Source: Serinicoccus hydrothermalis
GTDB lineage: Bacteria; Actinomycetota; Actinomycetes; Actinomycetales; Dermatophilaceae
DNA length: 64,000 bases
Direction of reading: 5' to 3'
NCBI RefSeq assembly: GCF_001685415.1
Contig: NZ_CP014989.1
Span: 3,224,001-3,288,000, forward strand
In this document: positions 565-10,914 of the stretch, piece by piece
Numbering within the stretch: the stretch's first letter is position 1
How the letters are laid out: each line of letters begins with the position of its first letter
Program-made: the position numbers and the translations under genes
The notes under the pieces: model-generated
Database searches by the model: none
What the model saw: the letters and a program-made list of their open reading frames with translations, nothing else
What the model was told of the DNA's origin: nothing

Positions 565-594
565 TTGACACCGCCGGAGGGCCTGATCTACCTT
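565..594 (+). promoter_or_regulatory. Sigma-70-type promoter of the ten-gene operon
   Basis: A perfect TTGACA -35 box (565-570) is followed after 18 bases by TACCTT (589-594), a TAnnnT -10 box. Transcription would start near 601, just before the inverted repeat at 604-625. Confidence 0.65.
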
Positions 595-603
595 CGAGGG
601 CGA

Positions 604-625
604 AACATGAATCACCTTTCATGTT
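604..625. promoter_or_regulatory. Perfect inverted repeat, probable operator
   Basis: AACATGAA (604-611) and TTCATGTT (618-625) form a perfect 8-base inverted repeat with a 6-base spacer, AT-rich in otherwise GC-rich DNA. It sits between the predicted transcription start (about 601) and the ribosome binding site (AAGGAG, 636-641). That is a repressor position. The TetR protein encoded inside the operon at 7096 is the obvious candidate ligand, by inference. Confidence 0.6.
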
Positions 626-648: not shown

Positions 649-1869
649 GTGAACGCACGGCCCGTCCGCCTGCTCACCGTCCTCACCGCCACTGCGGCGC
701 TGACCCTCTCGGCCTGCGCCCCGAGCACGGACGGGGGTGGCGACGACAGCGGCGGTGGCGGCGACGACGGCGGCGAGGGCGGCGGCACCGCCCAGGTCGG
801 CATCATCTACTCCGAGACCGGGCCGCTCGCGGCCTACGGCGAGCAGTACCGCCAGGGCCTGGAGGCCGGCATCGACTACGCCACGGACGGCACCGGCGAG
901 GTCGACGGCACCACCATCGAGGTGGAGTACCGCGACGACGCGGGCAACCCGGACACGGCCGTGGCCGCGGCCAAGGACCTCATCGGTCAGGACTACCGGA
1001 TCCTCGGCGGGACGGTCGTCTCCGGCATCGCCACCGCCATGGCCGAGCAGGCCGCGCAGAACGAGGTCCTCTACATCTCCGGCCCGGCCGCGACGGACGC
1101 AATCACCGGCACCAACGAGTTCACCTTCCGCTCCGGCCGCCAGTCCTACCAGGACGTCGCGACCGCCGGCGCGATGCTGGACGACAGCTCGGGCAAGGTC
1201 GTGGTCCTGGCCCAGGACAACGCCTTCGGGCAGGGCAACCTGGCCGCCGTCGAGGCGGTCCTGGGCGCCGAGGGCGCGGAGGTCGCCAGCGTGCTGGTGC
1301 CCGAGGACGCCACCGAGTTCACCGGCTTCGCCCGCCAGGTGGTCGACGAGGAGCCGGACCTCATCTTCGTCGCCTGGGCCGGGGCCACCGCCGGCAACAT
1401 GTGGCAGTCGCTCACCCAGCAGAACGTCTTCGACGCGGCCCCGGTGGTCACCGGGCTCGCCGACTCGGCGACCTTCGCCGCCTACGGCGACGCCGGCGAG
1501 CAGATCTCCTTCCTCTCGCACTACTTCCCCGGCGCCACCGACAACGAGGTCAACCAGGCCCTCGTCGACTCGGTCACCGAGGCGGGCGGCACCCCCGACC
1601 TGTTCACCGTCGACGGCTTCGTCGCCGGGCAGATGATCGTGCACGCCGTGGCCGAGGGCGGCGACGACGTCGACGGCATGATCGACGCGCTCGAGGGCTG
1701 GGAGTTCGAGGGGCCGAAGGGCACGACGACCGTCCGCGAGGGCGACCACGCGCTGGTGCAGGACATGTTCACCGCCCGCCTGGTGCAGGACGGCGACACC
1801 TGGGTCCCCGAGGTCATCGACACGGTCCCCGCGGACGAGGTCGCCCCGCCGGAGGCCTCGGGCGAGTGA
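649..1869 (+). CDS. ABC transporter substrate-binding lipoprotein, branched-chain amino acid (LivJ) type
   Basis: This is the extracytoplasmic receptor of the importer encoded next. The GTG at 649 is chosen because AAGGAG lies 7 bases upstream and the protein then starts with a compact signal peptide and lipobox LSAC (residues 20-23, lipidated Cys23). An ATG at 607 in the same frame falls inside the inverted repeat and has no ribosome binding site. A Gly/Asp linker (about residues 27-48) leads into a Peripla_BP_6 domain beginning VGIIYSETGPLAAYG. Family members bind branched-chain amino acids but also aromatic acids, amides and other small acids, so the ligand is open. Its stop overlaps the next start by 4 bases. 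Confidence 0.88.
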   Translation: MNARPVRLLTVLTATAALTLSACAPSTDGGGDDSGGGGDDGGEGGGTAQVGIIYSETGPLAAYGEQYRQGLEAGIDYATDGTGEVDGTTIEVEYRDDAGNPDTAVAAAKDLIGQDYRILGGTVVSGIATAMAEQAAQNEVLYISGPAATDAITGTNEFTFRSGRQSYQDVATAGAMLDDSSGKVVVLAQDNAFGQGNLAAVEAVLGAEGAEVASVLVPEDATEFTGFARQVVDEEPDLIFVAWAGATAGNMWQSLTQQNVFDAAPVVTGLADSATFAAYGDAGEQISFLSHYFPGATDNEVNQALVDSVTEAGGTPDLFTVDGFVAGQMIVHAVAEGGDDVDGMIDALEGWEFEGPKGTTTVREGDHALVQDMFTARLVQDGDTWVPEVIDTVPADEVAPPEASGE

Positions 1870-2675
1870 CGGAGCAGCACAGCCCGGTCCAGGGCCGGGA
1901 CGCGGGGGCGGAGAGCTCCGCCCCCGCCCCCGCCCTGGAGGTCCGGGATCTCTCGCTGCGCATCGGCGGCGCCCAGATCCTGGAGGACATCAGCCTCACC
2001 GTGCCGCGCGGCCAGATCGTCGGCGTCATCGGCCCGAACGGCGCCGGCAAGACCACGCTGTTCAACCTCATCTCCGGCGTGCTCGCGCCCACCTCGGGCC
2101 AGGTGCTGCTCGGCGGCCGGGACCTCACCCGGTCGGGCATCACCCAGCGCGCGGTGGCCGGCCTGGGCCGGACCTTCCAGACCTCCTCGCTCTTCCCCGG
2201 GCTCAGCGTGCACGAGAACGCCCGGCTGGCCGCCCAGGTCACCGAGGGCCGCGCCATCTCCCTCTTCTCCTTCCCGCGACGCGGTGACGCCGCGTCCCGC
2301 CGCGCCACCGCGCTGCTCGAGGAGGTCGGCCTCGGCCACCGTGCGGAGCACCGCGCCGGGGACCTGCCGCACGGCGACAAGCGCAAGCTGGAGATCGCCA
2401 TGCTCCTCGCGACCGACCCGGAGGTCGTCCTCCTGGACGAGCCCATGGCGGGCGTCGCCTCGGGCGACGTCCCGGGTCTCACCGAGGTCATCCGCGGCCT
2501 GCACCGCGACCACGGATGCACCGTGCTCATGGTGGAGCACCACATGGAGGTCCTGCTCGGCGTCGTCGAGCGGGTGGCCGTGCTCCACTTCGGCCACCTG
2601 CTCGCGATGGACACCCCGGAGGCGGTCATGGCCGACCCGACCGTCCAGAGCGCCTACCTGGGGGAGACGGTATGA
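1866..2675 (+). CDS. ABC transporter ATP-binding protein, LivG type
   Basis: This is one of two ATPases that drive the LIV-type importer. GTG at 1866 overlaps the previous stop (GTGA). The 269-residue protein carries Walker A GPNGAGKTT, Walker B VVLLDEPMAG, and LPHGDKRKLEIA in place of the usual LSGGQ signature; LivG proteins normally carry a variant of this kind. It ends on a typical LivG C-terminus (DPTVQSAYLGE). It should pair with the LivF-type subunit at 2672 beneath the two permeases. Confidence 0.9.
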   Translation: MTEQHSPVQGRDAGAESSAPAPALEVRDLSLRIGGAQILEDISLTVPRGQIVGVIGPNGAGKTTLFNLISGVLAPTSGQVLLGGRDLTRSGITQRAVAGLGRTFQTSSLFPGLSVHENARLAAQVTEGRAISLFSFPRRGDAASRRATALLEEVGLGHRAEHRAGDLPHGDKRKLEIAMLLATDPEVVLLDEPMAGVASGDVPGLTEVIRGLHRDHGCTVLMVEHHMEVLLGVVERVAVLHFGHLLAMDTPEAVMADPTVQSAYLGETV

Positions 2676-3511
2676 CGCCCGCCCAGCCCACCGGCGACCT
2701 CACCGAGGCACCGGCGCGGAGCGAGGACGTCGACCCCGTCCTGCACGTGCGCGGGCTGTCCGCCCACGTCGCCGGCCAGCAGGTCGTGGAGCACGTCGAC
2801 CTCGACGTCGCACCCGTCGGCGTCACCGCCCTCCTGGGGCGCAACGGCGTGGGGAAGACCTCGACGATCAAGGCCGTCCTCGGCCTCATCGGCCGGGCGG
2901 GCGAGGTCGAGCTCGCCGGCACCGACCTCGTGCCCCTGCCCACCCACCAGATCGTGCGGCTCGGGATCGGCTACGTGCCGGAGGACCGCGAGGTCTTCGC
3001 CGGCCTCACCGTGACCGACAACCTGCGGCTGGCCGAGCGGCGTGGCAGCGAGCACCGCTACGACCTCGTCTACGACCTCTTCCCGGAGCTGAAGCAGCGC
3101 GGCGCCCAGGCCGCCGGGACGCTCTCCGGCGGGCAGCAGCAGATGGTCTCCCTCGCCCGGGCCCTGCTCAACGACAACCAGGTGCTCCTCGTGGACGAGC
3201 CGACCAAGGGGCTCGCCCCCAAGCTCGTGCAGGAGGTGAGCCAGGTGCTCGCCCGCGCGGCGCAGGTCGCCCCCATCCTCCTGGTCGAGCAGAACCTCCA
3301 GGTCGTCCGCGAGCTCGCCCACCACGCGGTCGTCCTCACCGACGGACGCAGCGTCCACCACGGCCCCGCGCAGGAGTTCCTCGCCGACGACGCCCTCACC
3401 CAGCGCCTGCTGGGGGTCCACGGCGAGGGCGGGTCGGACCCCACCGAGGACCACGACCAGGACCGGGACCAGGCCGGCGCCGGGCATACCCGAGAGGAGC
3501 ACACCGAGTGA
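2672..3511 (+). CDS. ABC transporter ATP-binding protein, LivF type
   Basis: This is the second ATPase of the importer (279 residues), overlapping livG by ATGA. Walker A is GRNGVGKTS, the signature is LSGGQQQMVSLARAL and Walker B is VLLVDEPTKGLAP, the LivF pattern. The N-terminal 25 residues and a hydrophilic C-terminal tail (about 30 residues, Asp/Glu-rich) extend beyond the usual LivF core. The tail runs straight into the start of the next gene. Confidence 0.9.
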   Translation: MTPAQPTGDLTEAPARSEDVDPVLHVRGLSAHVAGQQVVEHVDLDVAPVGVTALLGRNGVGKTSTIKAVLGLIGRAGEVELAGTDLVPLPTHQIVRLGIGYVPEDREVFAGLTVTDNLRLAERRGSEHRYDLVYDLFPELKQRGAQAAGTLSGGQQQMVSLARALLNDNQVLLVDEPTKGLAPKLVQEVSQVLARAAQVAPILLVEQNLQVVRELAHHAVVLTDGRSVHHGPAQEFLADDALTQRLLGVHGEGGSDPTEDHDQDRDQAGAGHTREEHTE

Positions 3512-4383
3512 GCACCGTCGTCCTGCTCCTGTTCACCGGGGTCGGGCTGGGGGCGATCTACTTCCTGGTCGCCTCGGGCCTGTCCCTCATCTACGGCCTC
3601 ATGCACGTCCTCAACTTCGCGCACGGCGTCTTCCTGTCGCTCGGGGCCTTCCTCGGCTTCGAGGTGGCGAGCCGGCTCGGTGCCACGACGTGGACCGGCT
3701 TCGCGGCCTCGCTGCTCGTCGGCGCGCTCGCCGGGGCGGTCTTCGCGGCGCTCACCGAGCGGGTGCTCGTGCAGCGCCTCTACGAGCGGCACATCGAGCA
3801 GGTGCTCGTCACCGTCGGCCTCGGCCTTGCGGCCGTCGCCCTCTTCGACGGCATCTGGGGCACCGACCCGCAGTTCATCTCCGGCCCGGCGTGGCTGGGA
3901 CGGACCACGCACATCCTCGGCGCCAACGTGCCCAACGACCGCTTCGTGGCGATCCTCGTCGCCGCCCTGGTGCTGCTCGGCATGGTGCTCTTCCTGCAGC
4001 GCACCCGCTACGGCATGATCATCCGCGCCGGGGTGGAGAACCGGGCCATGGTCACCGCGCTCGGCATCGACGTGCGCACCGCCTTCACCCTCGTCTTCAC
4101 CATCGGGGGGATCGCGGCCGGGCTCGGCGGCGTCCTGGCCAGCCACTACTTCGGCTACGTCTCCCCGCTGCTGGGCCAGACGCTGCTCATCTTCGCCTTC
4201 ATCGTCACCGTCATCGGCGGCCTCGGCTCGCTCACCGGTGCGGCGATCGCGTCGGTCCTCGTGGCGCTGCTGCAGCAGTTCGCCAACTACTACCTCTGGG
4301 GCACCGGTGACCTCGCCGTCGTCGTGCTGCTCGCCGTGGTGCTGCTCACCCGACCCTCCGGACTCATGGGGAGGCGCGCATGA
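3508..4383 (+). CDS. ABC transporter permease, LivH type
   Basis: This is an integral membrane subunit of the LIV-type importer, 291 residues with about eight hydrophobic segments. It begins with the family pattern GLGAIYFLVASGLSLIYGLMHVLNFAHG and contains the conserved ENRAMVTALGID cytoplasmic loop that contacts the ATPase. GTG at 3508 overlaps the previous stop (GTGA). It should form a heterodimer with the LivM-type subunit that follows. Confidence 0.9.
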   Translation: MSTVVLLLFTGVGLGAIYFLVASGLSLIYGLMHVLNFAHGVFLSLGAFLGFEVASRLGATTWTGFAASLLVGALAGAVFAALTERVLVQRLYERHIEQVLVTVGLGLAAVALFDGIWGTDPQFISGPAWLGRTTHILGANVPNDRFVAILVAALVLLGMVLFLQRTRYGMIIRAGVENRAMVTALGIDVRTAFTLVFTIGGIAAGLGGVLASHYFGYVSPLLGQTLLIFAFIVTVIGGLGSLTGAAIASVLVALLQQFANYYLWGTGDLAVVVLLAVVLLTRPSGLMGRRA

Positions 4384-5534
4384 GCAGCCCGACGACACCC
4401 ACGCCCCGCCGCAGCTGGGTCGGCACCGCGGTGCCGCTCGCCCTCGTGGTGCTGCTGGCCTGCCTGCCGCTGCTCAACCTCCACCTGCCCGGGGTGCTGC
4501 CGGGGCCGACCTACACCCCCGGCTCGCTGCACCTGATGGCGCTCGCCATGGTCATGGCCGCGCTGGCGCTGTCCTACCACCTGCTCCTCGGGGTGGCCGG
4601 GCTGCTGTCCTTCGGGCACGCGCTCTACTTCGGCTTCGGCGCCTACGTGCTCGGCATCGTCATGTCCGAGCTCGACCTGGGGCTGGTGCCCTCGGTGCTC
4701 GTCGTGCTCGTGGCCGGCGTGGTCTTCTCCACCCTGCTCGGGGCGATCAGCCTGCGGGTCACCGGCATACCCTTCGCGATGGTCACCCTGGCCTTCGCCC
4801 AGGCCGGCTCGGTGCTGGTCCGCCGCGACCCGGGCCGGGTCACCGGTGGCGAGGAGGGGCTGCGGCTGCCGACCGAGCACGTGCCCGACGCGCTCATCGG
4901 GGTCGCCAACACCCGCAACCTCTACTGGCTGGCGCTCGCGGCCCTCGTGCTGGCCTTCCTGCTGACCAGCTGGGTGCAGCGCAGCCGGGCCGGGCACGTC
5001 GCGGAGGCGGTGCGGGAGAACGAGCTGCGCGTCCGGGTCCTCGGGATGCGGCCCTTCGTCGTCAAGCTCGCCATCTTCGTCGCCGCCTCGGTCATCGCCA
5101 TCGGGATGGGCATGGTCCACCTGCTGCTCAACTCGGGCGCCGTGCCCACCATCGTCAGCGCCGAGTTCACCATCTCGCTGCTGCTCATGGTCGTCATCGG
5201 CGGCGTCGGCTCGCGCTGGGGCGCGGTCACCGGGGCCGTGCTCTACGTCCTGCTCAACCAGCGGCTCACCGTCCTGGCGCAGGCCGAGTGGGTCCACGAC
5301 CTGCCCGCGGTGCTGCGGATCCCGCTGTCGGAGCCGCTGTTCATCCTCGGCACCCTCTTCGTCCTCGTCGTCATGTTCCTGCCCGGCGGCATCGCCGGGA
5401 CGGTGACCCGGCTGCGCGGACGCCGACCGTCGCGTGGCGGCGCGGACCCGGGTGCTGACAGGGTGGAGCAGGTGGACGACATCGAGGACGGCGACCGGCG
5501 GCAGGACGAGGGCGTGGGGGCGGCGCGCCCATGA
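4380..5534 (+). CDS. ABC transporter permease, LivM type
   Basis: This is the second membrane subunit of the importer, 384 residues. About ten hydrophobic segments end near residue 335. The conserved loop REN..RVRVLGM faces the ATPase, and GGVGSRWGAVTGA and MFLPGGIAG are typical LivM motifs. The last 40 residues are charged and low in complexity (Asp/Glu/Arg), longer than usual for LivM, and run into the overlap with the acyl-CoA ligase gene. Confidence 0.88.
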   Translation: MSSPTTPTPRRSWVGTAVPLALVVLLACLPLLNLHLPGVLPGPTYTPGSLHLMALAMVMAALALSYHLLLGVAGLLSFGHALYFGFGAYVLGIVMSELDLGLVPSVLVVLVAGVVFSTLLGAISLRVTGIPFAMVTLAFAQAGSVLVRRDPGRVTGGEEGLRLPTEHVPDALIGVANTRNLYWLALAALVLAFLLTSWVQRSRAGHVAEAVRENELRVRVLGMRPFVVKLAIFVAASVIAIGMGMVHLLLNSGAVPTIVSAEFTISLLLMVVIGGVGSRWGAVTGAVLYVLLNQRLTVLAQAEWVHDLPAVLRIPLSEPLFILGTLFVLVVMFLPGGIAGTVTRLRGRRPSRGGADPGADRVEQVDDIEDGDRRQDEGVGAARP

Positions 5535-7099
5535 CGGCCCCGGTCTCCGGTGCGCGGACGGACGGGCTGCACACGCTCGGCCGGTGGCCCGCCGACCGCG
5601 CCCGCATCGCGCCGGACCACGCTGCGGTCGTCGACCGCGGCGTGGCGCTGGGCTACGGCGAGCTCGAGGCCAGGGTGGAGCGGCTGGCGCAGGTGCTGCT
5701 CGGTGCCGGCATCGGCAGGGGTATGCGCGTGGCCACCCTGGTCGGCAACAGCGCCGACCACGTCGTGCTCTTCTTCGCCTGCGCCCGCGTCGGCGCCGCC
5801 CTGTGCCCGCTCTCCTGGCGGCTGACGCCGCCGGAGCTGGTGCGCCAGGTGCAGCTGCTCGACCCGGCGCTGCTCGCCACCGAGGAGGAGACCGGCGCCC
5901 TGGCCGACGAGGTCGCCGCGCGGCTCACCTGCCCGGTGCCGACGGCATACCTCACCGAGTTGGGGCGCCCGGGCACCGTGTCCGCCGCGACGGGACGGGC
6001 GCCGGTCGACCCCGAGCCGGTCGACGACGAGGACGCCCTGCTCGTCGTCTTCACCTCCGGCAGCCTCAGCGCACCCAAGGCCGCGGTCCTGTCCCACCGC
6101 ACCTGCTGGTGGACCAACCTCTCGCTGTCGCGGACCCTGGAGCTCACCGAGCGCGACGTGGTGCTCGCCGTGCTGCCGCAGTTCCACGCGGGCGGGTGGA
6201 ACATCCAGCCGCTGCTCGCGTGGTGGACCGGTGCGACCGTGGTGCTGGAGCGCACCTTCGACCCCGGCCGGGTGCTGAGCCTGGTCCGCGAGCACCGGGT
6301 GAGCACGATGATGGGCGTGCCGACGCAGTACCTCCTGCTGGCCGAGCACCCGGGTTTCGTGGACGCCGACCTGTCCACCCTGCGCAGCGCCGTCGTCGGC
6401 GGGGCCCCGATGCCGCCGCCCCTGCTGCGCACCTTCCACGCCCGCGGGGTGGCGCTGACCCAGGGCTACGGGCTCACCGAGGCCGGCCCCAACGTGCTCT
6501 GCCTGCCGCCGCACGAGGTCACCGACCGTGCCGGGTGGGCGGGCGTGCCCTACCCGCACGTCGAGGTCGCCCTCGCCGACGCGGCCACCGGCGAGCGGGT
6601 CCGGGGCGCCGGGACCGGCGAGCTGCTGGTGCGCGGCCCAGGGCTGTTCACCGGCTACCTGCACGACGAGGAGGCGACGGCGCAGGTGATGCACGACGGC
6701 TGGCTGTGGACCGGCGACGTCGCCACCCGCGACGAGCAGGGCTACCTCAAGATCGTGGACCGGCTGCGCAACATCTACATCAGCGGCGGTGAGAACGTCG
6801 CCCCCGCGGAGGTCGAGGCCGCGCTGCGGCGCCACCCCGCGGTCGCCTCGGCGGCGGTCGTCGGTCTGCCGCACGAGCGCTGGGGCGAGGTCGGGGTCGC
6901 GCTCGTCGTGCTGCGGCCCGGCGTCGCGACGGACGAGCACGACCTGCGCGAGCACTGCCGCGCGCTGCTCGCCGCCTTCAAGGTGCCCGAGCGGATCCTG
7001 GCCGTGCCCGACATACCGCAGGTGGGGATCGGCAAGAACGACCAGCCGGCCGTCCGGGCCCTGGCACGGGAACGTCTCGAGCGGCAGGAGCAACGATGA
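5531..7099 (+). CDS. AMP-binding acyl-CoA ligase (fatty-acid/acetoacetyl-CoA synthetase-like)
   Basis: ANL-superfamily ligases join a carboxylic acid to CoA through an acyl-AMP. The 522 residues show the order P-loop, GYGLTEAG motif, WTGDVATRDEQGYLKIVDR, the ISGGENVAPAEVE hinge region and the C-terminal lysine in GIGKNDQPAVR. The P-loop is unusual: TSGSLSAPKA stands where families carry TSGTTGxPKG, so one Thr and two Gly are replaced but the Lys is kept. It is embedded in the operon (ATGA overlaps on both sides) with a 3-hydroxybutyrate dehydrogenase. Activation of acetoacetate or another short acid is therefore plausible, but the substrate is not proven. Confidence 0.82.
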   Translation: MTAPVSGARTDGLHTLGRWPADRARIAPDHAAVVDRGVALGYGELEARVERLAQVLLGAGIGRGMRVATLVGNSADHVVLFFACARVGAALCPLSWRLTPPELVRQVQLLDPALLATEEETGALADEVAARLTCPVPTAYLTELGRPGTVSAATGRAPVDPEPVDDEDALLVVFTSGSLSAPKAAVLSHRTCWWTNLSLSRTLELTERDVVLAVLPQFHAGGWNIQPLLAWWTGATVVLERTFDPGRVLSLVREHRVSTMMGVPTQYLLLAEHPGFVDADLSTLRSAVVGGAPMPPPLLRTFHARGVALTQGYGLTEAGPNVLCLPPHEVTDRAGWAGVPYPHVEVALADAATGERVRGAGTGELLVRGPGLFTGYLHDEEATAQVMHDGWLWTGDVATRDEQGYLKIVDRLRNIYISGGENVAPAEVEAALRRHPAVASAAVVGLPHERWGEVGVALVVLRPGVATDEHDLREHCRALLAAFKVPERILAVPDIPQVGIGKNDQPAVRALARERLERQEQR

Positions 7100-7731
7100 G
7101 CGTCGAGGACCCGGTCGCCCGCCCCGCACCGCGGACCGCCCGGGGCGCCCGCACCCGGGCCAGGCTGTTGCAGGCGGCCGAGGACGTCTTCGCGACCGTC
7201 GGCTACCCGGACGCCTCGATCGTGCGGATCACCGAGCTCGCCGGGGTCGCGCTGGGCACGTTCTACGTGCACTTCACCGGCAAGAAGGAGATCTTCGACG
7301 AGGTCGTCCTCGACCTGTCGCGACGGGTGCGGCAGGCGATGAGCGAGGCCTCGTCGGCGGCGCCGGACCGGCTCACGGCCGAGCGCGACGGCTTCCGCGC
7401 GTTCTTCGCCTTCACCGCCGAGCACCCCGCGCTCTACCGCATCATCCGGCAGGCCGAGTTCGTCTCGCCCGAGGTGATGCGCACGCACTACGACGACATC
7501 TGCTCGGGGTATGCCGCGGGCCTGGACCGCGCGATGGAGCAGGGGCAGATCCGTGGTCTGGACCCGATGGTCGCGGCCTGGGCGCTCATGGGTGCCGGCG
7601 AGCTCATCGGGATGCGCTGGGTGCTCTGGGAGCAGGGCGGGCAGATCCCCGAACCGGTCTTCGAGCAGCTCATGCTGCTCATCGAGGGTGCCCTGGCACC
7701 CACCACGACGGACGAAGGAGAGCACACATGA
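7096..7731 (+). CDS. TetR/AcrR-family transcriptional regulator
   Basis: This is a 211-residue one-component repressor-type regulator. The N-terminal helix-turn-helix (about residues 18-64) reads RARLLQAAEDVFATVGYPDASIVRITELAGVALGTFYVHF in broad pattern, ending in the hallmark TFYVHFTGKKEIF. The larger helical C-terminus would bind the inducer. It lies in the middle of the operon and overlaps both neighbours by 4 bases. It probably autoregulates the operon through the inverted repeat at 604-625, with an acyl-CoA or hydroxyacid as effector; both points are inference. Confidence 0.88.
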   Translation: MSVEDPVARPAPRTARGARTRARLLQAAEDVFATVGYPDASIVRITELAGVALGTFYVHFTGKKEIFDEVVLDLSRRVRQAMSEASSAAPDRLTAERDGFRAFFAFTAEHPALYRIIRQAEFVSPEVMRTHYDDICSGYAAGLDRAMEQGQIRGLDPMVAAWALMGAGELIGMRWVLWEQGGQIPEPVFEQLMLLIEGALAPTTTDEGEHT

Positions 7732-8462
7732 CACGCAGGGCGATCGTCACCGGAGGAGCGAGCGGCATCGGGGCCGCGGTCGCGCGTCGGCTCGCCGCCG
7801 ACGGGATGCACGTGGTCGTGGCCGACCGGGACGCGGACGCCGCGCAGTCCCTGGCGAGCGAGCTCGGGGGAGAGGCGTGGACCGTGGACCTGTCGGACAC
7901 GGCGGCGCTGGAGGACGCCGACGTGGACTGCGACGTCCTCGTCAACAACGCCGGCGTGCAGCGGGTGGCCGCGGTCCACGAGTTCGTCCCCGACGACTTC
8001 CGGCTCATCCACCGGCTCATGCTCGAGGCCCCCTTCCTGCTGGCCCGGGCCGCGCTGCCGCACATGTATGCCCGTGGCTGGGGCCGGATCATCAACGTCT
8101 CCTCCGCGCACGGCCTGCGCGCCTCGGCCTTCAAGTCGGCCTACGTCTCGGCCAAGCACGGGCTGGAGGGGCTGTCCAAGGTCATCGCCCTGGAGGGCGC
8201 CGAGCAGGGCGTGACGAGCAACTGCGTCAACCCGGGCTACGTCCGGACGCCCCTGGTCGAGAAGCAGATCGCCGACCAGGCGAAGACGCACGGCATCGGG
8301 GAGGACGAGGTGATCGAGAAGATCATGCTCACCCGCTCCGCCGTGAAGCGCCTCGTCGAGCCCGAGGAGGTCGCCGCCCTGGTGTCCTTCCTCACCTCCG
8401 ACGACGCCGGCATGGTGACCGGCACGTCCTACACGATGGACGGCGGGTGGACAGCGCAGTGA
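7728..8462 (+). CDS. bdhA: D-3-hydroxybutyrate dehydrogenase (short-chain dehydrogenase)
   Basis: It oxidises D-3-hydroxybutyrate to acetoacetate with NAD. The 244 residues carry the cofactor motif TGGASGIG (about residues 8-15), NNAG followed by V-Q, the block SSAHGLRASAFKSAY (catalytic Ser, Tyr and the following Lys in SAKHG), CVNPGYVRTPLVEKQI and the C-terminal TMDGGWTAQ. The His in SSAH, the Lys in FKSAY and the Gln in VEKQ are the substrate-binding residues known in this subfamily, so the call is more specific than generic SDR. GAAGGAG lies 8 bases before the ATG at 7728, giving internal re-initiation strength. It anchors the operon's proposed function. Confidence 0.85.
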   Translation: MTRRAIVTGGASGIGAAVARRLAADGMHVVVADRDADAAQSLASELGGEAWTVDLSDTAALEDADVDCDVLVNNAGVQRVAAVHEFVPDDFRLIHRLMLEAPFLLARAALPHMYARGWGRIINVSSAHGLRASAFKSAYVSAKHGLEGLSKVIALEGAEQGVTSNCVNPGYVRTPLVEKQIADQAKTHGIGEDEVIEKIMLTRSAVKRLVEPEEVAALVSFLTSDDAGMVTGTSYTMDGGWTAQ

Positions 8463-9424
8463 GTGCCGAGACAAGCCCAGAGACGACCACCGCGGCGAGC
8501 ACCGAGAGCCTGCCCTCCTCGGTCGAGGCCGTCCTCGGCGAGCGCTACCGCAGCGTCGCCGTCCCAGTCGACGGGGGAGACCTCCACGTCGGGGTCTGGG
8601 AGCCCGAGGACAGCGAGGGTGCGGTCCCGACCGTGGTCCTCGTCCACGGGATCACCGCCTCGCATGTGTCCTTCGCCGCCCTGGCGCAGGCGCTGCCCGG
8701 CGTGCGCCTCGTGGCTCCCGACCTGCGCGGCCGGGGCCGCTCCCGCGACCTGCCCGCGCCCTACGGCATGCCCCGGCACGCCGACGACGTCGCCGCGGTC
8801 CTGCACCACCTCGGGGTCGACCAGGCCGTCGCGGTGGGTCACTCGATGGGCGCCTTCGTCTCGCTCGTCCTCGCCGACCGGCACCCCGACCTGGTGCGTT
8901 CCCTTCTCCTCGTCGACGGGGGTATGCCCCTGCTCCCGCCCCCGGGCGTCGCGCCGGAGGACATGGCGGCCGCGGTGCTGGGCCCGGCCGCGGACCGGCT
9001 GCGGATGACCTTCCCCAGCCGGGAGGCATACCACGAGTTCTGGCGCGAGCACCCGGCCCTCGGCCCGGGGTGGGACGAGTTCACGACCGCCTACGTCGAC
9101 TACGACCTGGTCGGTGAGGAGCCCGGGCTCACGCCCGCCACGCGGCCCGAGGCGCTGGCCGAGGACATCCGCGAGCTCGTCGACGGCGCCTCGGTGGAGC
9201 ACGCCCTCGACGCCCTCACGCACCCGGCGACCTGGCTCGTCGCGCCACGCGGCTTGCTGGACGAGGTGCCGCCGCTCTACCCTGACGCGGCCCGGGAGCA
9301 CTGGACCTCCCGGCTGCCCCGGCTGCGCATGGTCGCCCTCGAGGACGTCAACCACTACACCGTCGTGCTCGCGCAGCGTGGCGTGCGGCAGCTGCTGCCG
9401 CTCCTGGAAGGGGAGATCGCGTGA
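8459..9424 (+). CDS. Alpha/beta-fold hydrolase
   Basis: This is a 321-residue serine hydrolase. The fold markers are VLVHGIT (oxyanion strand), APDLRGRGRS, the nucleophile elbow GHSMGAF and a late histidine in DVNHYT; the acidic residue of the triad is not certain by eye. An unrelated, Ser/Thr/Glu-rich N-terminus of about 35 residues precedes the fold. GTG at 8459 overlaps the dehydrogenase stop. In this context it could cleave an ester or dimer of 3-hydroxybutyrate so that the dehydrogenase can act, but lactone or other ester substrates are equally open. Confidence 0.82.
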   Translation: MSAETSPETTTAASTESLPSSVEAVLGERYRSVAVPVDGGDLHVGVWEPEDSEGAVPTVVLVHGITASHVSFAALAQALPGVRLVAPDLRGRGRSRDLPAPYGMPRHADDVAAVLHHLGVDQAVAVGHSMGAFVSLVLADRHPDLVRSLLLVDGGMPLLPPPGVAPEDMAAAVLGPAADRLRMTFPSREAYHEFWREHPALGPGWDEFTTAYVDYDLVGEEPGLTPATRPEALAEDIRELVDGASVEHALDALTHPATWLVAPRGLLDEVPPLYPDAAREHWTSRLPRLRMVALEDVNHYTVVLAQRGVRQLLPLLEGEIA

Positions 9425-10914
9425 TCGGACTCATCGGGATCCTGCTGTCGCTGGCCCTGCTCATCGTCCTGGCCTACCGGGGTCTCAACGTCATCGTCCT
9501 CGCGCCGATCATGGCGAGCATCGCGGTGATCTTCGCGGGTGCGCCGATCCTCGCGACGTACACCCAGGTCTTCATGCCGGCGATGGGCAACTTCGTCGTC
9601 AGCTTCTTCCCGCTCTTCCTGCTGGGTGCCCTCTTCGGCAAGGTCATGTCGGACTCCGGCGCCGCGCTGCGGATCGCCGAGTGGGTGGTGCGCCGGGTCG
9701 GGGGCGACAAGGCGATCCTCGCGGTCGTCCTGGCCTGCGCGATCCTCACCTACGGCGGCGTCTCGCTCTTCGTCGTGGCCTTCGCGATGTTCCCCATCGC
9801 GGCGGCGCTCTTCCGCGAGGCGCGGGTGCCCAAGCGGCTCATCCCGGGCGCGATCGCGCTGGGCGCGTTCACCTTCACCATGACCGCGCTGCCCGGCACC
9901 CCCGCGATCCAGAACGCCATCCCCAACCCCTACTTCGGCACCGACGGCTTCGCGGCCCCGGGCCTGGGGATCATCGCCGGCCTCATCATGTTCGCCGGCG
10001 GCGTGGGCTGGCTGACCTGGCGCAGCCGCAGGGCCGCCGCCGCGGGCGAGGGGTATGACGACGGTCCCCTCATGACGACCGGCGCCGACTCCGCGGCGCT
10101 CACCATCGACCTCGGCGACGACGAGGGTCCGGGCGCGGCACCGCGCGGGGAGGACGGCACCGGTACCCAGCCGGAGGCCGGCGGCACCCTCACCGCCGTC
10201 CGCGAGCGCGACCTCCCGCCGCTGTGGGTCGCCTTCCTGCCGGTCTTCGTGGTCATCGGGCTCAACCTGCTCCTGCTGCGGGTGGTCTTCCCGATGATGG
10301 ACACCAGCTACCTCGCGGAGGAGCGGTACGGCGCGACGGAGCTGTCCATGGTGCAGGGCAACTGGGGGCTCATCGTCGCGCTGGCCACCGCGGTGGTTCT
10401 CGCCTTCGTGCTCAACTGGCGGCGCCTGGCCAACCCGAAGAAGAGCTTCAACTCCGGCACCACCGCCTCCTTCCTGCCGATCATGAACACCGCCAGCGAG
10501 GTCGGCTACGGCGCCGTCATCGCCTCGCTCGCCGGCTTCGTGCTGGTCCGGGACGCGATCATGGGCTCCTCGGACAACCCGGTCGTCTCGACCGCGATCG
10601 CGGTCAGCGTGCTGGCCGGCATCACCGGCTCGGCCTCGGGCGGCATGGGCATCGCTCTGGAGGCGCTCGGTCAGGACTTCCAGTCGATGGCGGCCTCGGC
10701 CGGGATCGACATGGAGCTCATGCACCGGGTGACGACGCTGGCCTCGGGCGGCATGGACGCGCTGCCGCACAACGGCGCCGTCATCACCCTGCTGGCGATC
10801 TGCGGCCTGACCCACAAGCAGTCCTACAAGGACGTCGGGATGGTGGCCGTGGTCATCCCCGTGGTCGCGCTCGCCGTGGTCGTCGCGCTCGGCTCGGCCT
10901 TCGGCGCCTTCTAG
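9421..10914 (+). CDS. GntP-family permease (gluconate/hydroxyacid type)
   Basis: This is a secondary transporter, 497 residues with about twelve hydrophobic segments. Family motifs include MPAMGNFVVSFFPLFLLGALFGKVM, ALPGTPAIQNAIPNPYFGT and the C-terminal SASGGMGIALEALG and GGMDALPHNGA. A hydrophilic loop of about 70 residues (near 205-275), rich in Asp and Gly, splits the two halves. GntP relatives next to 3-hydroxybutyrate dehydrogenase genes are thought to carry 3-hydroxybutyrate. It is the last gene of the operon; its stop sits in a small hairpin. Confidence 0.85.
   Translation: MIGLIGILLSLALLIVLAYRGLNVIVLAPIMASIAVIFAGAPILATYTQVFMPAMGNFVVSFFPLFLLGALFGKVMSDSGAALRIAEWVVRRVGGDKAILAVVLACAILTYGGVSLFVVAFAMFPIAAALFREARVPKRLIPGAIALGAFTFTMTALPGTPAIQNAIPNPYFGTDGFAAPGLGIIAGLIMFAGGVGWLTWRSRRAAAAGEGYDDGPLMTTGADSAALTIDLGDDEGPGAAPRGEDGTGTQPEAGGTLTAVRERDLPPLWVAFLPVFVVIGLNLLLLRVVFPMMDTSYLAEERYGATELSMVQGNWGLIVALATAVVLAFVLNWRRLANPKKSFNSGTTASFLPIMNTASEVGYGAVIASLAGFVLVRDAIMGSSDNPVVSTAIAVSVLAGITGSASGGMGIALEALGQDFQSMAASAGIDMELMHRVTTLASGGMDALPHNGAVITLLAICGLTHKQSYKDVGMVAVVIPVVALAVVVALGSAFGAF

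Follow-up and report, generated by a model that had tools for sequence, protein, structure and literature searches.

A conserved actinobacterial operon and its operator point to a probable TetR-controlled regulon for extracellular poly(3-hydroxybutyrate) and its breakdown products

We analysed a 64,000-nucleotide stretch of the Serinicoccus hydrothermalis genome (contig NZ_CP014989.1, positions 3,224,001 to 3,288,000), called the window hereafter, which carries on its forward strand an operon of ten genes at positions 649-10914. This operon is probably one half, that of uptake and catabolism, of a TetR-controlled regulon by which the cell lives on extracellular poly(3-hydroxybutyrate) (PHB), a natural plastic built from 3-hydroxybutyrate, and on its breakdown products. 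A sequence-only reading of the same DNA had proposed that 3-hydroxybutyrate (3HB) or its esters are imported, oxidised to acetoacetate and activated by the ligase of the operon. The substrate part of that proposal was strengthened, as scoAB and thiolase genes are found in operons of relatives and the operon has its operator in common with a PHB depolymerase gene; the ligase step is probably not the main route of activation. The esters in question would most likely be PHB oligomers. Gene content, its conservation, the conservation of the operator and its second copy were all established by computation, as reported in the following sections.

An operator conserved upstream of the operon

A likely promoter was read from the sequence upstream of the first gene (565-594, forward strand). 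It consists of TTGACA at 565-570, an 18 bp spacer, and a weak second hexamer, TACCTT, at 589-594. Starting 9 bases after the TACCTT element, a perfect 8+6+8 inverted repeat, AACATGAA-TCACCT-TTCATGTT (604-625, forward strand), is presumed to be the site of the TetR protein; its position is that of a classical repressor site. A generic promoter and terminator scan of the window listed no element. The repeat is the sole match in the window when up to 3 mismatches are allowed, and no match was obtained in 100 shuffles.

The sample of relatives consisted of 43 fetched operon loci, 40 of which are distinct (judged by length, L015/L212, L016/L209 and L022/L207 each represent a single contig; L and G numbers designate loci and genomes, G000 being the genome of the window). 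In 39 of 43 operon loci, a count that includes the window, a TTGAC element was found at most 45 bases ahead of the operator. When the upstream regions of the window and of 21 loci were scored against the pattern AACCTGAATCACCTTTCAGGTT, 20 of the 22 reached at least 17 out of 22, and 300 single-base shuffles of each upstream region gave none above 16. The operator was missed only in L136 and L138, which are the two loci lacking the TetR gene for a reason other than a contig end, and which both lack the ligase gene as well. It is on this co-occurrence that the link between the TetR protein and its predicted binding site rests.

Genome-wide searches with up to 3 mismatches returned 14 places, spread over 13 of the 16 genomes searched; 12 of these places lie at the operon, and the reversed control pattern returned 1. 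The pattern was present in 10 of the 13 genera searched. Within the genus of the window, 23 of 31 genomes have the operator (0 for the control pattern), and the same 23 genomes carry the gene for the solute-binding protein (SBP) that heads the operon.

A second operator copy upstream of a PHB depolymerase gene

When up to 3 mismatches were allowed, one further operator was found in the genome of the window (G000:C1:1988740-1988761, 1 mismatch). It precedes by 68 bases the probable start codon of the gene at G000:C1:1987313-1988650, whose product passes the model for extracellular type-1 short-chain-length polyhydroxyalkanoate (scl-PHA) depolymerases (NF050058, 177.6 bits against 150), as well as the cut-offs of PF10503 and TIGR01840. 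By eye, its N-terminus is basic then hydrophobic, and the protein is probably secreted. An 82% identical depolymerase gene in G216 is also preceded by the operator (2 mismatches), with a different upstream neighbour. A 54% identical gene in G142, from another family of the order, has a site with 4 mismatches, the rest of the 7-kb stretch containing nothing better than 8. Altogether, the operator precedes three (G000, G216 and G142) of the five genes whose products pass NF050058, the other two being those of G203 and G198. Three weaker matches in the operon-bearing genomes G043, G123 and G202 showed no site within 6 mismatches; the depolymerase family scan left out L223 (G123) and the G202 match. 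Four genomes that lack the operon (G106, G148, G064 and G017) also gave PF10503 matches.

Three further observations concern these sites and their surroundings. The depolymerase gene in the genome of the window comes after prpD-prpB-prpC, of the methylcitrate cycle (L157, G000:C1:1982000-1996000, 5311-10344). The same prp/crt neighbourhood in G212 has a partial site (3 mismatches) and no depolymerase gene (L196, G212:C1:66000-77000, 4870-4891), a probable remnant of gene loss. Finally, in G179 a site with 3 mismatches precedes, at a distance of 121 bases, a gene called as a metabolite:H+ symporter (L158, G179:C12:32000-45000, 6637-8093). This is the type of transporter that stands beside the dehydrogenase gene in L028 (see the dehydrogenase scan below), and the single G179 site, at 3 mismatches, could be due to chance.

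Layout of the ten genes

All ten reading frames between 649 and 10914 are open and in frame on the forward strand. The first five encode an importer of the ATP-binding cassette (ABC) type from the LIV/HAAT families, named after the branched-chain amino acid systems: the SBP (649-1869; PF13458, Peripla_BP_6, 201.3 bits), with a lipobox-like N-terminus by eye, the LivG-type ATPase (1866-2675; PF00005, PF12399), the LivF-type ATPase (2672-3511; PF00005), and the LivH-type (3508-4383; PF02653) and LivM-type (4380-5534; PF02653) permeases. They are followed by genes for an AMP-forming acyl-CoA ligase (5531-7099; PF00501, PF13193), a TetR-family regulator presumed to be the repressor of the operon (7096-7731; PF00440, TetR_N, 41.5 bits for a cut-off of 24), a predicted D-3HB dehydrogenase of the short-chain dehydrogenase/reductase (SDR) family (7728-8462; above the cut-off of NCBIfam TIGR01963), an alpha/beta hydrolase presumed to act on 3HB oligomers or esters (8459-9424; PF00561, 91.4 bits) and a GntP-family permease, presumably a 3HB symporter (9421-10914; PF02447, 28.6 bits for a cut-off of 22.5). 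The gene boundaries, junctions and Pfam families (Peripla_BP_6, two ABC_tran, two BPD_transp_2, AMP-binding, TetR_N, SDR, abhydrolase and GntP_permease) agree with those of the sequence-only reading. A tRNA scan of the window gave no match.

The nine junctions are nine 4-base overlaps, five of them ATGA and four GTGA. This is beyond chance, because in the rest of the window, as counted with our own gene caller, only 4 of 29 co-directional neighbour pairs overlap in this way (4 of 12 for gaps of at most 30 bases). In the 43 loci of relatives, window excluded, a start producing a 4-base overlap is possible at 293 of 341 scored junctions. The dehydrogenase-hydrolase junction allows it in 32 loci out of 32, and the weakest junction among the nine common genes, SBP-LivG, in 25 out of 43. 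The 4-base overlaps are kept by evolution across these loci.

Nine of the genes form a widespread operon

The sequence-only reading had known of no operon described with just this gene set. The operon, with or without some of its genes, was nevertheless recovered in the 43 loci of other actinobacteria, where the nine-gene unit is common, and the full ten genes are present in G209 and G212, and in G205 with short gene calls. A close SBP was found in 16 of 198 genomes of the order, own genome included, and the SBP gene in 13 of the 71 genera sampled there. At each of the 15 other SBP loci of the order, the SBP gene heads a LivGFHM set; the ligase and TetR genes come next in 13 of these 15, the hydrolase gene is found in all 15, and the dehydrogenase gene is in line in 10 of 13. 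The GntP gene is at the operon end in three of the 43 loci of relatives, those of G205, G209 and G212 (the genus contributes 22 of the loci, of which two are truncated at a contig end). We conclude that the first nine genes are a widespread actinobacterial operon, to which the GntP gene is an addition.

Genes with a role in ketone-body use accompany part of these operons, namely those of the textbook conversion of acetoacetate into acetyl-CoA. Both scoA and scoB were found in 11 of the 43 loci (9 of the 15 operons from the survey of the order, where they lie with the ligase gene or near it, plus L053 and L065), and a thiolase gene in or beside the operon in 12. For L065, the ScoA and ScoB products pass the NCBIfam transferase-subunit cut-offs and the thiolase passes the general thiolase cut-off. 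A second hydrolase gene is present in 7 of the 43 loci; the best NCBIfam match of the L057 copy is the intracellular scl-PHA depolymerase, at 100.9 bits, below the cut-off of 300.

Two other clusters were noted. L138 (G001, 2353-10842) is a variant, with a LIV set and a hydrolase gene, and without ligase, TetR or operator; its other strand carries a dehydrogenase gene and one for a 629-residue protein with a weak NCBIfam match. In L099 (G069:C17, 5580-9313), from another family, gntP, a 3HB dehydrogenase gene, scoA and scoB stand in a row, which is an independent link of a GntP-type permease to ketone-body genes.

Dehydrogenase, hydrolase and ligase

The window dehydrogenase scores 319.3 bits with TIGR01963 (PHB_DH, cut-off 307.05), and its best solved relatives are D-3HB dehydrogenases. 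The 3HB-specific residues that had been pointed out earlier are indeed present: the Gln of NNAGxQ, the His of SxHGL, the Lys of ASxxKxAY and the Gln of LVExQ were found in the window protein, which was aligned with 2yz7 and 3v2h; in a set of 31 aligned rows, they are kept in at least 95%. We take these four to be the substrate residues.

A scan for the dehydrogenase yielded 80 loci. All or part of the operon is present in seven of them, which are L015, L016, L022, L053, L057, L065 and the short L026. Among six layouts (L023, L024, L028, L041, L046 and L050, from Arthrobacter-type, Sinomonas, Kocuria and Rhodococcus genomes), four have the dehydrogenase gene after a gene of 458-477 codons; the best match of this preceding gene in L028 is a metabolite:H+ symporter model, at 378.1 bits, below its cut-off of 443.45. 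On a Rubrobacteraceae contig (L094), the dehydrogenase is followed by an acetoacetyl-CoA synthetase (895.6 bits against 520.9), and in Ornithinimicrobium (L018, L019 and L021) it is placed back to back with a different LIV-type set. The dehydrogenase thus has transporters and enzymes of acetoacetate activation as its neighbours in these layouts. In L018, a gene close by encodes a 632-residue protein with a weak match to the acetate regulator RamA (46.3 bits, cut-off 500). Among the genomes of the genus, a dehydrogenase match with an E value of at most 1e-80, whether inside the operon or elsewhere, was obtained in all 23 that bear the operon versus 3 of the 8 others; the match in G205 spans residues 86-244 only, and the one in G207 is 59% identical.

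At least 97% of 42 aligned rows conserve the G-H-S129-M-G and N-H299-Y motifs of the hydrolase. With the intracellular scl-PHA depolymerase model NF050089, the window hydrolase (8459-9424) scores 46.2 bits, below the cut-off of 300.

As to the ligase, activation of acetoacetate had been its proposed role. Its candidacy as an acetoacetyl-CoA synthetase (TIGR01217) was rejected, the match being in pieces of 35.5 and 22.2 bits for a cut-off of 520.9, and no gene in the genome of the window passes this cut-off. In this genome a single scoA passes its cut-off; it lies at G000:C1:1153822, unlinked to the operon, with scoB after it. Given these two genes, and those in the operons of relatives, we do not maintain the proposed role: the ligase is probably not the main activator of acetoacetate. 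Its gene is kept in 40 of the 43 loci, also where scoAB is present, and is missing from L136, L138 and L218 (the last by contig end). Because several operons hold both the ligase and ScoAB, the ligase may act on some other substrate or produce the inducer, and this is the least certain part of our interpretation.

The importer and its ligand

All five transporter subunits belong to the LIV/HAAT families by Pfam, and all five proteins are below the NCBIfam Liv cut-offs. In LIV-type receptors a Glu, which is Glu226 in LivJ, holds the amino group of the substrate. In an alignment with LivJ and LivK of E. coli, this column is Thr in 44 SBPs out of 44, those of the window and its 43 relatives. Of the seven LivJ contact columns compared, five differ, those of Ser79 and Tyr18 being retained. 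These differences indicate that the ligand of the importer is probably not an alpha-amino acid. For the nearest solved relatives of the SBP, 3n0x and 3nnd, no ligand is named in the structure table.

Weighing the alternatives

A number of observations weigh against a regulon for extracellular PHB. The dehydrogenase gene is absent from 10 of the 43 loci, in two cases (L218 and L219) by contig end, the others being L131, L133, L136, L137, L198, L205, L210 and L217. In G205, the frames called for tetR, the dehydrogenase gene and gntP are short (L204, G205:C1:2740000-2755000, 3702-7513); with the partial dehydrogenase match in that genome, they suggest an operon that may be damaged or badly assembled. 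The PF02447 match of the GntP permease is weak, and the protein is far below the NCBIfam gluconate cut-offs. Relatives of GntP elsewhere are mostly not near 3HB genes: among five other genomes with GntP, three show none, G069 has the gntP-sdr-scoA-scoB row, and G191 has scoAB and a thiolase gene nearby. On the depolymerase side, the site of G142 carries 4 mismatches, and the NF050058-passing proteins of the operon-bearing genomes G203 (29% identical) and G198 (26%) are without a site, none being detected within 7 mismatches in the fetched 8-kb stretches. Furthermore, a close relative of the depolymerase was found in only 2 of the 31 genomes of the genus, so that most operon carriers must get the substrate in another way, and the region before the depolymerase gene is without the TTGAC element typical of the operons, so that control at this gene may go in either direction. 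Lastly, near solved relatives of the ligase and of the SBP are named for aromatic acids, or known for them.

The best surviving alternative keeps the same regulon and widens its substrates to various short 3-hydroxy acids or their oligomers, for instance 3-hydroxyvalerate from poly(3-hydroxybutyrate-co-3-hydroxyvalerate), with the ligase activating the acids that ScoAB leaves. The retention of the ligase alongside scoAB would be explained, and the prpDBC genes adjoining the depolymerase gene would use the propionyl-CoA expected from 3-hydroxyvalerate. The prp neighbourhood is, however, not kept in G216, and specificity is not readable from sequence. We regard such a range as possible, if somewhat unlikely.

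It is improbable that the operon serves the uptake of aromatic or phenylpropanoid acids, which the ligase, by its likeness to feruloyl-CoA synthetase, would activate, with a side-chain hydroxy acid as the substrate of the dehydrogenase. The best solved relatives of the ligase, 8weu and 8wev, are named fatty-acyl-CoA synthase and feruloyl-CoA synthetase, and the third and fourth solved relatives of the SBP are aromatic-acid binders. However, none of the ten genes belongs to an aromatic pathway, the partners found in relatives, among neighbours that are labelled, are scoAB, thiolase and hydrolases, and the operator is common to a PHB depolymerase gene. The last point applies equally to an operon for uptake and use of branched-chain amino acids, in which the dehydrogenase would only serve the acetoacetate formed from leucine. 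That reading, suggested by the family of all five transporter genes, is still harder to credit, with Thr in the LivJ Glu226 column of every SBP and not one known leucine-catabolic gene among the ten (unlabelled neighbours in relatives are mostly unnamed). Mobilisation of the cell's own stored PHB, in whose intracellular turnover a 3HB dehydrogenase and a hydrolase also serve, can be set aside, as the genome has no match to PhaC_N of the PHA synthases and an internal substrate would hardly call for five importer genes plus a second permease.

A proposed regulon for the use of extracellular PHB

Returning to the regulon for extracellular PHB, we propose the following scheme, in which activities, ligands, secretion and the sign of regulation are all predictions from sequence. 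A secreted type-1 depolymerase, with the same operator upstream of its gene, would release 3HB monomers and oligomers, and the LIV-type ABC importer, joined in this subclade by the GntP permease, would carry them into the cell. The cytoplasmic alpha/beta hydrolase would cut the oligomers, the dehydrogenase would turn D-3HB into acetoacetate, and ScoAB, encoded elsewhere in this genome and in the operon of some relatives, would with a thiolase give acetyl-CoA. Bound to the inverted repeat that closely follows the promoter, the TetR protein would block transcription until an inducer appears, which may be 3HB or an acyl-CoA made by the ligase. The scoAB genes, the lack of a PhaC_N match in the genome and the dehydrogenase match in all 23 operon-bearing genomes of the genus fit a scavenger of PHB made by other organisms.

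Relation to known systems

The importer has the same five-component architecture, and belongs to the same family, as the LIV/HAAT importers (LivJ/LivKHMGF); it differs by the Thr of its SBP in place of the amino-group Glu and by its link to ketone-body enzymes. As for the permease, HbuT of Bacillus subtilis is YxjC, a protein of the GntP type whose gene goes together with scoA, scoB and a dehydrogenase gene. The window GntP likewise shares its operon with a 3HB dehydrogenase, a likeness of gene context, and differs in that scoAB is unlinked in the genome of the window. To our knowledge, the B. subtilis locus has no LIV importer, ligase, hydrolase or TetR gene. HbuT is reported, in a 2021 review, as a membrane transporter needed for 3HB uptake; the same text gives the transporter responsible for 3HB uptake as not known, HbuT being presumed (PMC8000602).

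In Pseudomonas, hbdH (PP_3073) encodes a 3HB dehydrogenase, P. aeruginosa needs hbdH and a sigma-54 regulator on (R)-3HB, and PP_2049 is more important than HbdH in P. putida KT2440 (PMC13390443), while PP_3074 (bhbP), the next number to hbdH, is annotated as a D-beta-hydroxybutyrate permease (PMC6296734). This hbdH/bdhA and PP_3074 system relies on a sigma-54 activator, where the window has a TetR protein, and no ABC importer is named in the passages on it. The accepted route for PHA consists of a depolymerase, an oligomer hydrolase, a dehydrogenase, and AacS or ScoAB (PMC7830162). To the type-1 extracellular scl-PHA depolymerases, the operator-linked G000 protein is related through the NF050058 model. 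A literature search, with subscription journals mostly outside it, found no description of the operon or the operator, of a connection between a TetR regulator and a PHB depolymerase, or of an operator that such a depolymerase gene has in common with an uptake operon. What appears to be new is the combination, together with the operator and the assignment of a LIV importer; the parts themselves are known.

In its full form, our proposal is a tentative one: an undescribed actinobacterial TetR regulon would couple a secreted PHB depolymerase to a LIV-type importer of 3HB and its short oligomers instead of amino acids, the acyl-CoA product of the ligase being the inducer. If true, polymer attack and oligomer uptake would be switched on together. 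For the poorly known uptake of 3HB, the operon names a candidate ABC importer, a candidate permease, a candidate regulator and a 22-bp operator. The uptake of bioplastic breakdown products, and its regulation, are thereby made directly testable, and the TetR protein with its operator is a candidate sensor part.

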